A DNA stretch of 44,879 nucleotides from assembly GCA_016219175.1 (NCBI GenBank), contig JACRCD010000001.1:1-44879 (forward strand). The letters are read 5' to 3'. Shown piece by piece: positions 31,358-40,902 of the stretch. The translations under genes were made by a program, and so were the position numbers. Position 1 is the first letter of the stretch. Each line of letters opens with the position of its first letter. The DNA comes from Deltaproteobacteria bacterium. Lineage in GTDB: Bacteria; Desulfobacterota; Desulfobulbia; Desulfobulbales; SURF-16. The notes under the pieces are model-generated. The model worked only from the letters and a program-made list of their open reading frames with translations, ran no database searches and was not told the DNA's origin.

Positions 31358-33559
31358 ATGAGCGCAGAATTAAAAATAGCCCTGGCAGGCAATCCCAACT
31401 CCGGTAAAACCACCCTTTTTAATGCCCTGACGGGTTCCCGGCAGCATGTCGGGAATTATCCGGGGGTCACGGTGGAAAAGAAAGAGGGGGTGTATCGTCT
31501 TGAGGACAAGAAGATCAATATCGTCGACCTGCCCGGCACTTATTCTCTTACCGCCTATTCGGAAGAGGAGGTGGTGGCCCGGGATTTTCTGATCTTCGAG
31601 AAACCGCAAATAATCGTTAATATTATCGATGCGGCCAACCTGCAAAGAAATCTTTATCTGACCACCCAATTTTTTGAACTGGGCATTCCGGTGATCATTG
31701 CCCTCAATATGATCGATGCGGCCCGTGACCGGGGCATTGAGATCAAGGCCGACCGGCTTGCGGAATTTCTGGGGGTGCCGGTTGTGCCCATCATTGCCCG
31801 CACCGGGTTCGGTACGCAGAAACTGATGGAGGAAGCCGCCCGTCAGGCGGCCAGGAAGAAGGAGTGGCATCCCAAGCCGATTTCCTATGGCGAGGATCTG
31901 GATTCAACCTTGCTTGATCTTGAGGAAAAGATTAGTGCGGGTAATTTTCTGACCATGTACCCGAGCCGCTGGGCGGCGATCAAATATCTGGAAAACGATC
32001 AGCAGATCATTAGCCGGGGCAGGGCGGAAAACGGGGCGCTGTCCGCCGAACTGGAAAAGAAGGTTGCCGCTGTCTCCCAGCATCTGCTGGAGACCATGGA
32101 GACCTATCCCGAGGCCATGGTGGCTGATCACCGTTACGGCTACATCAAGGGAATTTTGCAGAAAGGGGTCATTTCCCATAAGTATGACCAGGACAGGCTC
32201 TATACCTCGGACCGTATCGACAAGGTGCTGACCAATCGTTTCCTGGGTCCTCTCTTCATGGCGGTCGTCCTGTTCGGCCTGTATACCTTTACCTTTACCT
32301 ACAGCGAATTACCGGTTTCCTGGCTGGAAACCCTTTTCGGGCAGATTTCCCTTGTTGTGGAGCAAGTATTGCCGGATGGGCCGTTAAAATCCCTGATCAT
32401 CTCGGGCATTATTGACGGGGTGGGCGGGGTGCTGGGTTTTGTGCCGCTTATCATGTTCATGTTTTTTGGTATCGCCATCCTGGAGGATTCCGGCTATCTG
32501 GCCAGGGTCGCCTTTATGCTTGACCGGATTTTCAGGGTCTTTGGCTTAAACGGCAGTTCGGTCATGGCCTATATCCTGTCCGGCGGCATTGCCGGGGGCT
32601 GCGCCGTGCCCGGGGTCATGGCCACCAGGACCCTGCGTTCCCCCAAGGAGAGGATGGCGACCCTGCTTACCGCGCCCTTTATGAACTGCGGGGCCAAGCT
32701 GCCTGTGCTGGCCCTGTTCATCGGCGCCTTTTTTTCCGAGAACAAGGCGCACTACATGTTCTTCTTCACCATCCTTTCCTGGCTGGTGGCCCTGGTGCTG
32801 GCCAAGCTGCTGCGGGTCACCGTGTTGCGAGGCGAGAGCACCCCCTTTGTTCTGGAACTACCTCCTTACCGTTTTCCCACCCTGAAAGGACTCCTTATTC
32901 ATACCTGGGAGAAAACATGGCAGTACATCAAAAAGGCCGGTACGGTGATTTTAGGCATTTCCATCATTATCTGGGCCATGATGACCTACCCCGGTCTGTC
33001 TGAAAGTGAGAAAGGGAAATTTGCCCTGCAGCGGCAGGAGGTGGAGGCGGCTTATCCGGCCATGGTCGTGGCCGGCGGCAACATGGCGCTCTCCGAGGCC
33101 GAGGCAACGGAGCGGAGCCGTCTGCTCGACTCCATAGACCGGGCAGAGGCCAACGCCACCTTGCGCTATTCGGTGGCCGGACGGGTCGGCATCGCCTTGG
33201 AAAGGGTCAGTTTCCTGGCCGGTTTCGACTGGCGCACCAATATCGCCCTTATCGGCGGGGTGGCGGCGAAAGAGGTGATCCTTTCCACCCTCGGCACCGC
33301 CTATTCCCTGGGAGGCGACGATCAGGAGAAGAACGGATCGCTGGCGGAGATTCTGGCTTCGGATCCTGGTTGGAACCCGGTCAAGGCCCTGAGTGTTCTG
33401 CTTTTTATTTCCTACTATGCCCCCTGTTTTGTCACGGTCGTCTGCATTACCCGGGAAGCGGGTTCCTGGAAGTGGGGCGCCTTTTCCATGGTCTTCAACA
33501 CCCTTTTCGCCTTTGTATTGGCGGTGCTGGTCTACCAGATAGGGTCTCTGCTTTTTTGA
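31358..33559 (+). CDS. feoB: Ferrous iron transporter B
   Basis: Inner-membrane Fe2+ transporter of 733 aa with an N-terminal GTPase domain. G-motifs are seen: GNPNSGKT (11-18), DLPGTYSL (G3) and NMID (G4). A GDI-like helical region (about 170-270) follows. The membrane part has two Gate repeats, including GGIAGGCAVPGVMATRTLRSP, with its conserved Cys in the translocation path, and GVAAKEVILSTLGTAY. The final helices end at the stop. It is the last gene of the feo operon and converges on ettA. Confidence 0.97.
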   Translation: MSAELKIALAGNPNSGKTTLFNALTGSRQHVGNYPGVTVEKKEGVYRLEDKKINIVDLPGTYSLTAYSEEEVVARDFLIFEKPQIIVNIIDAANLQRNLYLTTQFFELGIPVIIALNMIDAARDRGIEIKADRLAEFLGVPVVPIIARTGFGTQKLMEEAARQAARKKEWHPKPISYGEDLDSTLLDLEEKISAGNFLTMYPSRWAAIKYLENDQQIISRGRAENGALSAELEKKVAAVSQHLLETMETYPEAMVADHRYGYIKGILQKGVISHKYDQDRLYTSDRIDKVLTNRFLGPLFMAVVLFGLYTFTFTYSELPVSWLETLFGQISLVVEQVLPDGPLKSLIISGIIDGVGGVLGFVPLIMFMFFGIAILEDSGYLARVAFMLDRIFRVFGLNGSSVMAYILSGGIAGGCAVPGVMATRTLRSPKERMATLLTAPFMNCGAKLPVLALFIGAFFSENKAHYMFFFTILSWLVALVLAKLLRVTVLRGESTPFVLELPPYRFPTLKGLLIHTWEKTWQYIKKAGTVILGISIIIWAMMTYPGLSESEKGKFALQRQEVEAAYPAMVVAGGNMALSEAEATERSRLLDSIDRAEANATLRYSVAGRVGIALERVSFLAGFDWRTNIALIGGVAAKEVILSTLGTAYSLGGDDQEKNGSLAEILASDPGWNPVKALSVLLFISYYAPCFVTVVCITREAGSWKWGAFSMVFNTLFAFVLAVLVYQIGSLLF

Positions 33560-38781: not shown

Positions 38782-38810
38782 TTGACAAGAAAATAGAGAA
38801 TTCCGATAAT
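38782..38810 (+). promoter_or_regulatory. Strong sigma70-type promoter of sbtA
   Basis: TTGACA (38782-38787), a 17-base spacer and GATAAT (38805-38810). It differs from full consensus by one base. It gives a leader of about 80 bases. Confidence 0.75.
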
Positions 38811-38872: not shown

Positions 38873-38899
38873 GAAATTCTCAAGCAAAAGGAGGAACAA

Positions 38900-39199
38900 A
38901 TGGAAAAAAAAGAAATGAAGAAGATTCTGGCGGGGATGGGCATTGCCGGCCTGCTGGGCGGCATGTCACTTGGCGTCGGCGTTGCCTTTGGCGCCAGCGG
39001 CTGAGGCGGAAAGGACCACAGTGCAGTTGGCACTGAAAAACAAGGGACAGCAGGCAGTGGCTGAAGCGGAACTAAAGAGGGTGCGGTCAGCACTCAGGAA
39101 AAAACAGACAAACCGGCAGCCGGGGTTGATGACAATGCCACCAAGGAAGGGGAAATGAAAAAACCTTCCGGCGGCAGCGGCTGCAGCGGGCAGAAATAG
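38900..39199 (+). CDS. sbtA: Selenocysteine-containing selenobiotic precursor peptide (SbtA-like)
   Basis: A 99-residue precursor peptide, read only if the in-frame TGA codons at 39002-39004 (residue 35) and 39062-39064 (residue 55) are decoded as selenocysteine; it ends at TAG (39197-39199). AGGAGG lies 5 bases before the ATG. The leader (1-31) is lysine-rich, then Gly/Leu/Val-rich and hydrophobic (KKILAGMGIAGLLGGMSLGV). Three core motifs follow: S-G-U-G-G (33-37), S-G-U-S-G (53-57) and S-G-C-S-G (93-97), the last using Cys. Between them is a Lys/Glu/Thr/Gly-rich hydrophilic stretch. Both TGA codons are followed by matching SECIS-like hairpins. Next is a radical SAM maturase gene. This is the layout of the selenobiotic family (SbtA/SbtM), predicted ribosomal peptides modified at U or C. 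Decoding is inferred, not shown. Confidence 0.88.
39019..39035 (+). promoter_or_regulatory. SECIS-like hairpin for the first UGA of sbtA
   Basis: CAGTGC-AGTTG-GCACTG: a 6-bp perfect stem and 5-base loop, beginning 17 bases after the first base of the TGA at 39002. The loop contains a G-U at positions 25-26 counted from the U of UGA, close to the G23-U24 recognised by SelB in E. coli fdhF. Confidence 0.7.
39079..39095 (+). promoter_or_regulatory. SECIS-like hairpin for the second UGA of sbtA
   Basis: GGGTGC-GGTCA-GCACTC: a 6-bp stem (one G-T pair) and 5-base loop, also beginning 17 bases after the first base of its TGA (39062). The apical GTGC-GGTCA-GCAC is strikingly like the TGC-AGGTCT-GCA top of the E. 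coli fdhF SECIS, and its loop G-U is again at positions 25-26. Confidence 0.75.
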
Positions 39200-39247
39200 C
39201 GGCGCGGTCTGCCGCGGAAATTTTATCGGCCTGAAAAAACACATTGC

Positions 39248-39287
39248 AGGGACAGGGGCTTTCTGCCCTGTCCCTTTCTTTTTTTTA
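39248..39287 (+). terminator. Terminator between sbtA and sbtM
   Basis: Perfect 10-bp stem AGGGACAGGG/CCCTGTCCCT (39248-39257, 39266-39275) followed by TTCTTTTTTTT. It would let the peptide be made in excess of the maturase if read-through is partial. Confidence 0.85.
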
Positions 39288-39303: not shown

Positions 39304-40902
39304 ATGAAACCAGAACGCATTTTCCCGGCAACCTGTGCCTGTATCGGCGAAACCCTGCTGACGCAACTCCTTGGGGCAGAGGCGGAATCCTTTGAGCCTG
39401 TCCGCTTTCCGGCTGCCGTGGCAAGATGGCGGGAAAGTTTGCCGCTTCCCCCCTATCTTCCTGATTTGGCGCAACTTGAGCTGGCCTATTATTCCGTAAG
39501 AGAGAAAGGCTCTTCGGGAATAGCTGATCAGGTCGAAGCCTTCAGCCTCAATCCGACGTTAGAGTTGCTCAAGTTCGGCTGGAAAGATCTCCCTGCCTTG
39601 CTTGATAAAAGTGATAGTCCGCCGGCTTTTTCACCTGGGCCCGGGGAAGAATTTGTCCTGGTCTATCGCGTACCCGGCACGGAAAAAGCGGTGGCCAGGG
39701 TGGCCCATCAGGGGGACCTGCTGGTTCTGAAAATGATGGTGGAGCAGATCAGCCCGGAGGCAGCCGCGGCGGAAGGAAAGGTGGCGGTGGGGGTGATTGA
39801 CGCGGCGCTTGGCCGGGCTGTGGCACAGGGGATACTGCTTTCTCCCCCCTCTCGCATCAGACGGAATCCGCAAACTTTCCCCAAGGGGGAAAATATCCCT
39901 GAGCGCTTTTTTTCTTCTCCTGTTTTTACCTTGCAATGGCATATCACCCAAGTCTGCGATCTGCATTGCCGGCATTGTTATGACAGAAGCGACCGCGTCG
40001 CTCTGTCGCTTGACAAGGGCATACGGATACTCGATGATCTGCGCGGCTTCTGCCGCGAGCACCATGTGCAGGGCCAGGTTTCCTTTTCCGGCGGAAATCC
40101 TCTTCTCTACCCGTATTTTTCTGAATTGTACCGGGCTGCCGTGGAGCGGAATCTGATGGTGGCCATCCTGGGCAATCCGGCCTCCCGCGTAACCATGGCG
40201 GGCATTATCAGCATCGCGCGGCCGGAATTTTACCAGGTAAGTCTGGAGGGTTTGCAGCCGCATAACGACTACATCCGGGGAACGGGGCACTTTGACCGGG
40301 TGATGCGTTTCCTGGAGTTGCTCAAGGAGTTGGGCGTCTACTCCATGGTGATGCTGACCTTGACCCGGGACAATCTGGACCAGGTGCTGCCTTTGGCGGA
40401 ACTGTTGCGTGACCGGGTTGATCTGTTTACCTTCAACCGCCTGGCCATGGTAGGGGAAGGCGCCAGTCTGCAGTCGGTAAACCCGGCTGACTATGCCGGG
40501 TTTTTAAAGAAATATCTGGCCGCGGCCCGTGAAAATCCGATTATCAGTCTCAAGGATAACCTCATCAATATTATCCGCGGGCAGGAACAAGAACCCCTCT
40601 TCGGCGGCTGCGCCGGCTACGGCTGCGGGGCGGCCTTTAATTTCTTTTCCGTGCTGCCGGACGGGGAAGCCCACGCCTGCCGGAAATTCCCATCTTACAT
40701 CGGCAACGTCTTTGCCCAAGGCCTCAGCGCCATATACCATGGAGAACCAGCCCGCAGGTACCGGACGGGAGCGGCCGCCTGCGCCTCATGTTCGATCAGG
40801 CCTGTCTGTGGCGGTTGTCTGGCCGTGGCCCATGGCTTTGGCCAGGATGTTTTTACAGACAAGGACCCCTACTGTTTTCTCCAGCAGGAAACGCAATCCT
40901 GA
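39304..40902 (+). CDS. sbtM: Selenobiotic-family radical SAM/SPASM peptide maturase (SbtM-like)
   Basis: Cytoplasmic radical SAM enzyme of 532 aa. The N-terminal about 200 residues are family-specific (begins MKPERIFPATCACIGETLL). The radical SAM core has C-D-L-H-C-R-H-C, with Cys218, Cys222 and Cys225 binding the SAM-cleaving 4Fe-4S cluster, followed by SFSGGNPLLYP (SAM-binding GGNP). The C-terminal SPASM-type region has many Cys: GGCAGYGCG, HACRKFP and CASCSIRPVCGGCLA, with a final PYC; these should hold auxiliary clusters. Enzymes of this kind modify ribosomal peptides, and the neighbour upstream is the selenocysteine-containing precursor. I recall the family name as thio(seleno)oxazole maturase; the chemistry is not visible in the sequence. 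The ATG at 39304 lacks a good Shine-Dalgarno. It converges on the kinase gene with 3 bases between. Confidence 0.88.
   Translation: MKPERIFPATCACIGETLLTQLLGAEAESFEPVRFPAAVARWRESLPLPPYLPDLAQLELAYYSVREKGSSGIADQVEAFSLNPTLELLKFGWKDLPALLDKSDSPPAFSPGPGEEFVLVYRVPGTEKAVARVAHQGDLLVLKMMVEQISPEAAAAEGKVAVGVIDAALGRAVAQGILLSPPSRIRRNPQTFPKGENIPERFFSSPVFTLQWHITQVCDLHCRHCYDRSDRVALSLDKGIRILDDLRGFCREHHVQGQVSFSGGNPLLYPYFSELYRAAVERNLMVAILGNPASRVTMAGIISIARPEFYQVSLEGLQPHNDYIRGTGHFDRVMRFLELLKELGVYSMVMLTLTRDNLDQVLPLAELLRDRVDLFTFNRLAMVGEGASLQSVNPADYAGFLKKYLAAARENPIISLKDNLINIIRGQEQEPLFGGCAGYGCGAAFNFFSVLPDGEAHACRKFPSYIGNVFAQGLSAIYHGEPARRYRTGAAACASCSIRPVCGGCLAVAHGFGQDVFTDKDPYCFLQQETQS

Follow-up and report, generated by a model that had tools for sequence, protein, structure and literature searches.

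We identified a gene of the SbtA type, sbtA, at positions 38900-39199 of the window, the 44,879-nt stretch of DNA analysed here. It is likely that its two in-frame UGA codons are read as selenocysteine (Sec), that the adjacent radical SAM enzyme SbtM makes seleno- or thiooxazoles at its SG(Sec/Cys) motifs, and that the product leaves the cytoplasm, probably by general secretion. The family is already known as the SbtA (TIGR04081)/SbtM (TIGR04082) thio(seleno)oxazole RiPP system (Lewis et al., 2021, via PMC11002830), and TIGR04081 appears in a 2026 review under the name 'Selenobacteriocin', with the motif SGUG and two Sec (PMC13188914), so the novelty implied by the original prediction for this DNA was too strong. 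New here are the lipobox-type leaders (in 29 of the 75 precursors), a further SbtA, likewise of lipobox type, carried by another contig of the source genome, and a RiPP-recognition-element (RRE)-like domain predicted in SbtM. The analysis also adds a peptide apparently dictated by RNA hairpins, a likely switch from Sec to Cys with a relic hairpin, and the suggestion of a role in the cell envelope, which would give the orphan 'selenobacteriocin' an envelope hypothesis that can be tested.

Identification of sbtA

The sbtA frame starts with an ATG at 38900 and ends with a TAG at 39197-39199 (Table 1). The original prediction had described a 100-codon frame behind a strong Shine-Dalgarno sequence; the AGGAGG element, the start and the frame stand, and the length is corrected to 99 codons plus the stop. 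The in-frame TGA codons 35 and 55 and both flanks were as described, with recQ upstream on the minus strand (Pfam DEAD, Helicase_C and RecQ_Zn_bind) and a radical SAM gene downstream. The full translation, MEKKEMKKILAGMGIAGLLGGMSLGVGVAFGASGUGGKDHSAVGTEKQGTAGSGUSGTKEGAVSTQEKTDKPAAGVDDNATKEGEMKKPSGGSGCSGQK, opens with KKILAGMGIAGLL, passes through ASGUGG and GSGUSG and closes with SGCSGQK. It holds three SG(U/C)[GS]G motifs, the third of which, missed at first, is written with TGC (Cys95). A profile search matched the leader to TIGR04081 at 40.7 bits, above the curated cut-off of 30.5, and a Pfam search of SbtA with E up to 1 returned no match. One promoter-like site was found against 0.4 expected in shuffles, as a consensus match only. 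Antisense open reading frames over sbtA were taken as shadows of the gene. The window also encodes a FeoB ferrous iron transporter (31358-33559, Pfam), about 5 kb from sbtA.

Table 1. Features of the sbtA-sbtM region and of the second precursor (window positions unless a contig is named).
Feature	Position	Strand	Description or basis
Promoter-like site TTGACA-17-GATAAT, 5' of sbtA	38782..38810	+	Consensus match only
Shine-Dalgarno AGGAGG	38889..38894	+	Sequence
sbtA	38900..39199	+	99-residue precursor: predicted Sec35 and Sec55, Cys95, TAG stop; TIGR04081
Leader/predicted export signal, residues 1-31 (KKILAGMGIAGLL...; AFG end, then ASGU)	38900..38992	+	TIGR04081 match residues 1-26
In-frame UGA, codon 35	39002..39004	+	Sequence, translation
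SECIS-like hairpin 1, CAGTGC-AGTTG-GCACTG	39019..39035	+	Minimum-energy fold; family covariation
In-frame UGA, codon 55	39062..39064	+	Sequence, translation
SECIS-like hairpin 2, GGGTGC-GGTCA-GCACTC	39079..39095	+	Minimum-energy fold; family covariation
TGC (Cys95), third SG(U/C)SG motif	39182..39184	+	UGA here in 6/8 close relatives
Likely relic of third SECIS	39200..39216	+	Just past stop; 4/6 pairs in relatives' register
Intrinsic terminator-like stem and T-run, sbtA/sbtM gap	39248..39285	+	Fold z -4.04
sbtM, radical SAM/SPASM maturase	39304..40902	+	TIGR04082; Pfam Radical_SAM, SPASM
Predicted RRE-like domain, SbtM residues 77-187	39532..39864	+	Fold search, N-terminal domain
Radical SAM cluster Cys218, Cys222, Cys225 (CDLHCRHC)	39955..39978	+	Invariant in 35 SbtM
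SbtA2, second lipobox-type SbtA	L004:1501-1782, source-genome contig C93	-	94 residues, leader match

Selenocysteine machinery and distribution of SbtA

The genes for which a search had been proposed, selA, selB, selC (tRNA-Sec) and selD, are all present in the source genome. Profile searches gave 619.1 bits for SelA and 364.9 bits for SelB; SelD scored 375.6 bits and a tRNA-Sec with anticodon UCA 68.9 bits. The frame of SelD crosses an in-frame TGA of its own (G000:C88:161448-162374), and SelD of this genome is probably itself a selenoprotein. Co-occurrence with SelB was set aside as uninformative evidence, as SelB is found in 27 of 28 SbtM genomes but also in 263 of 297 genomes of the phylum; the SbtM genome lacking SelB by E-value (G113) is 76% complete.

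A scan of genome contigs gave 63 SbtM loci, 49 of which have an SbtA-type frame near SbtM (45 by regular expression and four by leader HMM, which also yielded a second copy in L046). The frame contains an in-frame UGA in 47 of these 49 and Cys only in L030 and L063. SbtA was absent from the fetched DNA of the other 14 (L029, L032, L033, L058, L062, L064, L065, L067, L068, L070, L076, L078, L079 and L083), among which L076 and L058 have little upstream DNA. Within the phylum, SbtM exceeded its cut-off in 28 of 297 genomes, the source genome included. Loci from the other 27 contained SbtA by HMM in 22 cases, four loci repeating earlier ones; the five HMM-negative loci (L094, L102, L104, L112 and L113) include weakly scoring SbtA-like frames in L102 and L112 and a partial one in L113. 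Removal of six duplicates from 81 precursors left a non-redundant set of 75 from 67 loci, which includes the 38900-39199 copy and leaves out SbtA2 and the L102, L112 and L113 frames. UGA is present in 70 of the 75. Cultivated organisms among the carriers of the system are Desulfosarcina alkanivorans PL12 (L051) and Desulfurivibrio sp. AMeS2 (L066). Comparison with SbtA-family peptides, for which the original prediction had suggested an alignment, agrees with membership of the SbtA family, the leader matching TIGR04081 and SbtA with UGA recurring in related genomes, and conservation extends past the first TGA, both UGA codons being kept across genomes.

Several arrangements depart from that in the window. 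Cys-only SbtA-like peptides occur near SbtM in L030, L063, L102 and L098, where the Cys-only peptide is a second precursor in tandem with a UGA-rich one. In L028, L031 and L034 the precursor gene follows sbtM at a distance of about 0.9 kb, instead of lying upstream, and the SbtA tails of L035, L038, L044, L055 and L082 are long, rich in Ala, Lys and Asp, and end in AIEGC.

SECIS-like hairpins downstream of UGA

At both UGA35 and UGA55 a 6-bp stem with a 5-nt loop begins 14 nt on and is the minimum-energy fold, with fold z scores that are modest singly (-1.56 and -1.61 for hairpins 1 and 2). Across the 75 precursors a hairpin follows 144 of 178 UGA codons, a total that includes probable true stops, the corresponding figures being 10 of 60 for Cys codons and 199 of 2040 for control codons lying more than 12 codons from any UGA. 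The offsets cluster at 14 nt (72/144) and 11 nt (31/144), and the first two loop positions include a G in all 144 hairpins. Among the 34 UGA codons without a hairpin at threshold, some are real stops, several have weaker hairpins and others (L040, L060) look genuine. In L039, L043, L050 and L054 the last UGA stands one or two codons before the stop (SGUS, SGUN, SGUSU) and the hairpin lies past the stop; at the SGUSU ends, one of the two close UGA codons is presumably Sec and the other the stop.

The 6-bp/5-nt hairpin is present at 81 of 102 unique internal sites, far exceeding synonymous reshuffles (mean 6.7, maximum 15 in 500 runs), and the peptide therefore does not force the hairpin. Covariation was assessed on 44 of 62 same-spacing sites (loci before L088), picked by the Ala-Val/Gly pair and not by pairing. 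In this set 98.9% of cells were paired, 54 cells had changed on both sides against a shuffled mean of 14.5, and the covariation was 0.564 against 0.208 +/- 0.023 in shuffles and at most 0.138 in the slid control, figures to be read knowing that kinship inflates the contrast with shuffles and that the slid control favours a structure derived from the same sequences. Two of five covariation measures did not beat the shuffles, namely both-side-changed pairs (4, a value reached in 67 of 500 shuffles) and further pair types (9, reached in 280 of 500). The synonymous reshuffle and the Cys and codon-position controls are cleaner tests than covariation. We infer with some force that UGA35 and UGA55 are decoded by SelB and tRNA-Sec, the hairpins being SECIS elements.

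A repeat largely dictated by RNA

A coherent composition and a repeated motif across both TGA codons had been noted originally; the repeat is real, and what had been overlooked is its cause, largely the hairpin. Among 51 unique hairpin 17-mers, the Ser codon before Ala is AGT in seven and AGC in six, and three codons past this Ala stands Thr (ACT) in all seven cases with AGT and Ala (GCT) in all six with AGC. A silent change of Ser codon on one side of the hairpin goes together with an amino-acid substitution on the opposite side. Over all, the third-base pairs were T-A in 32, T-G in one, C-A in none and C-G in 11 (Fisher 1.6e-9, uncorrected for kinship). The AVST sequence and the coherent repeat of SbtA are thus largely the hairpin seen as protein, a clean case of RNA structure setting protein sequence in which the Ser codon and the Thr/Ala switch jointly keep the hairpin paired. 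No description of this Ser/Thr-Ala covariation in SbtA was found in the open-licence literature, among the matches listed.

A likely switch from Sec to Cys in the third motif

The last motif contains UGA in the close relatives L022, L023, L024, L026, L090 and L100, and TGC in the 38900-39199 copy and in L073; the residue is lost in L021. The last-motif hairpin of the UGA-bearing relatives begins where the stop codon ends, or one base earlier, and in their register four of six pairs are kept at 39200-39216 and five of six in L073. A shifted 6-bp pairing is possible at the Cys95 site but is not the minimum-energy fold, whereas the UGA sites do fold into the hairpin; the statement that the Cys95 hairpin had decayed was softened in view of this shifted stem. 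In an SbtM tree (one FastTree run, read without support values) L073 groups beside the UGA-bearing L023 and apart from the source-genome copy, which suggests that the switch may have happened twice, in the source genome and in L073. The SbtA peptides of four genomes of the same genus are identical, letter for letter, to those of L021, L023, L024 and L073, and one of six genomes of the genus (G375) gave no SbtA match. The likely switch and its relic hairpin, beside two intact sites, provide an internal control for UGA decoding.

The maturase SbtM

The product of the downstream gene scored 731.9 bits against TIGR04082 (cut-off 350) in a profile search. A fold search with the whole SbtM model was swamped by radical SAM cores, so the N-terminal domain was modelled and searched by itself; its modelled fold appears RRE-like. 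The radical SAM/SPASM RiPP maturases SkfB, ChlB, 5why/5wgg (presumably CteB) and SuiB make thioethers or C-C links; SbtM differs in matching TIGR04082, an equivalog for oxazole formation. In vitro, another SbtM accepted both Cys and Sec peptides as substrates, which lost four hydrogens, and a thiooxazole was shown by NMR for the Cys product (PMC11002830). The SbtM product has been placed with the thiooxazole peptides on the basis of an absorbance band at 302-305 nm (PMC12668002; PMC12538549).

Leader sequences and export

A lipobox-type Cys was found at residue 27, 28 or 29 in 29 of 75 precursors (25 at residue 29); shuffling residues 18-40 within each peptide gave 8.6 on average and never more than 15. 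Cys or UGA codons at residues 18-31 of the 75 precursors comprise these 29 lipobox Cys and one UGA (residue 30). Residues 23-38 of the 46 non-lipobox precursors contain [AVS]-x-A in 30 and A-x-G in 15, together a fraction of 0.98 against a shuffled mean of 0.71 and maximum of 0.90, so that this part of the case for export is weak. The leader of the 38900-39199 peptide has no lipobox by regular expression, only an A-F-G site; lipobox, A-x-A and A-x-G were all called in this way. Seven of the eight loci with two precursors, several of them related to each other, pair a lipobox with a non-lipobox copy (L037, L046, L060, L093, L107, L108 and L110, not L098). The lipobox copies of L108 and L110 contain neither UGA nor an SGU motif, which counts against export, and the leader gives the impression of being more conserved than usual signal peptides, which also fits a pure recognition leader. 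Judged from these sequence features, SbtA is likely exported, its leader probably doubling as a signal peptide. Copper is sequestered in the periplasm by bufferins, which carry secretory (Sec) signal peptides, and lipoproteins are predicted for about 16% of Buf2 (PMC12452194); RiPP-lipoprotein hybrids exist among MNIO products (PMC12636315, in whose main text 'SbtM' and 'seleno' are absent). No description of SbtA as exported, lipidated or metal-binding was found in the open-licence literature, among the matches listed.

The second precursor of the source genome, SbtA2 (L004), has the lipobox LLAGAGC and in-frame UGA codons 50 and 55. The hairpin CGGTGC-AGTTG-GCACCG starts 11 nt after UGA55; UGA50, five codons before, has no hairpin of its own. 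SbtA2 scores 20.6 bits against TIGR04081, below the 30.5 cut-off, showing that the curated model misses some precursors. The claim that such peptides are likely unannotated in related genomes was too strong, given that a curated leader model exists, and is borne out to the extent that SbtA2 falls below its cut-off. SbtA2 recurs at 68% identity, with both UGA codons kept, in G386 of the same genus; matches were obtained in 9 of 146 genomes of the order, source included, most of them weak and some probably other SbtA. No second SbtM over the cut-off is listed for the source genome, and SbtA2 may be modified in trans by SbtM. Its lipoprotein-like character hints at a cell-envelope job for the family. 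Two further weak source-genome matches to SbtA, L002 and L003, were rejected, having no leader match, unlike L004. An ABC-ATPase-like frame was seen by eye near SbtA2.

Proposed function and alternatives

In the mechanism proposed here, SelB and tRNA-Sec would decode UGA35 and UGA55, the hairpins acting as SECIS; the N-terminal domain of SbtM, going by its fold, would bind the SbtA leader; and the radical SAM core would remove four hydrogens per Sec or Cys, as for another SbtM (PMC11002830). The SbtA of 38900-39199 would be freed into the periplasm, and SbtA2 would be anchored as a lipoprotein. In analogy to the MNIO-made bufferins, the rings would serve as ligands for soft metal ions, Cu(I) for example, this being the weakest step. 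A tentative extension, possible rather than probable, is that SbtA could be the selenium counterpart of bufferins, a two-gene system with an RRE-fused radical SAM enzyme that would make seleno- or thiooxazole metal claws without MNIO, on a matched pair of soluble periplasmic and lipoprotein peptides whose repeat is largely dictated by SECIS.

SbtA is not a member of the bufferins or captophorins, the MNIO-made 5-thiooxazole copper-binding peptides: a radical SAM enzyme replaces MNIO, and selenium is involved. As to the Sec-dependent signal peptide of bufferins, the SbtA leader is hydrophobic and carries A-x-G here, or a lipobox in relatives (by regular expression). SbtA gave no Pfam match, with E up to 1, to bufferin families such as DUF2282 (Pfam-modelled families only), and PF05114 (MNIO) had no match in the source genome or in any of the 28 SbtM genomes. 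Mutual exclusion of MNIO and SbtM was considered and dropped (0 of 28 SbtM genomes vs 3 of 79 phylum genomes), MNIO being too rare for a meaningful comparison.

It is rather unlikely that the exported peptide acts in redox reactions, electron transfer or the storage of selenium instead of binding metal, although peptides contain several UGA codons, Cys-only versions exist (L030, L063, L102) and what we take to be an MsrA-like protein lies upstream in three loci (L040, L046, L060; by eye). A redox role is presumed for most uncharacterised selenoproteins (PMC13188914), but the 38900-39199 peptide has no UxxC or CxxU pair, SbtM would lock Sec or Cys in a ring, and the thiooxazole peptides known so far are copper binders (PMC12668002, section 10). 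Recognition of the leader across the family by one HMM, and the RRE-like domain of SbtM, would also suit a leader used for SbtM recognition only, with the core excised in the cytoplasm as a small product resembling a cofactor; this is improbable given that the lipobox Cys at residues 27-29 recurs above shuffles and that no family beyond SbtM is widely common to the neighbourhoods.

RiPP machinery often serves bacteriocins, and in three related loci (L044, L055, L082; by eye) a presumed efflux-adaptor-like protein is encoded about 2.9 kb upstream. A secreted antimicrobial released as a small modified peptide, in keeping with the name given to TIGR04081 in Table 1 of the review (PMC13188914), is nevertheless distinctly improbable: lipobox-type precursors would stay anchored, and, SbtM apart, the most widespread protein family reached 11 of 64 neighbourhoods (flanks up to 3 kb, families read by eye). 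For SbtA the evidence favours an envelope role over a small antibiotic. The term 'selenobiotic', under which the peptide was first classed, was not found in the open-licence literature searched. A chance or dead frame, with translation simply ending at UGA35 after 34 residues, is scarcely credible: ordinary gene calling does treat UGA as a stop and minus-strand ORFs overlap, but the hairpins, their covariation, the third-motif Cys and the conservation of both UGA codons across genomes speak against it and, with the leader score and the SbtA-type frames near SbtM in relatives, uphold the earlier claim that the frame is beyond chance.

Relation to the described SbtA/SbtM system

The 38900-39199 SbtA, best read as a likely exported thio(seleno)oxazole peptide, agrees with the described system in its leader, SG(U/C) motif, in-frame UGA and adjacent SbtM, both models being over cut-off. 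The leader model, the SbtM neighbour, an SGU[GS]G UGA with a downstream hairpin and the Sec machinery were all found, and on these the original assignment to SbtA-type precursors holds; the layout is silent on function. Differences from the SbtA described are the combination of two UGA codons and one Cys in one precursor, and an SbtA2 on another contig that falls below the cut-off. Conserved neighbours were tried as a clue to function and discarded: the widest family after SbtM, a GGDEF-type protein, reaches 11 of 64 neighbourhoods, and recQ is shared by few close relatives, neighbours being annotated by Pfam in the window and read by eye elsewhere.
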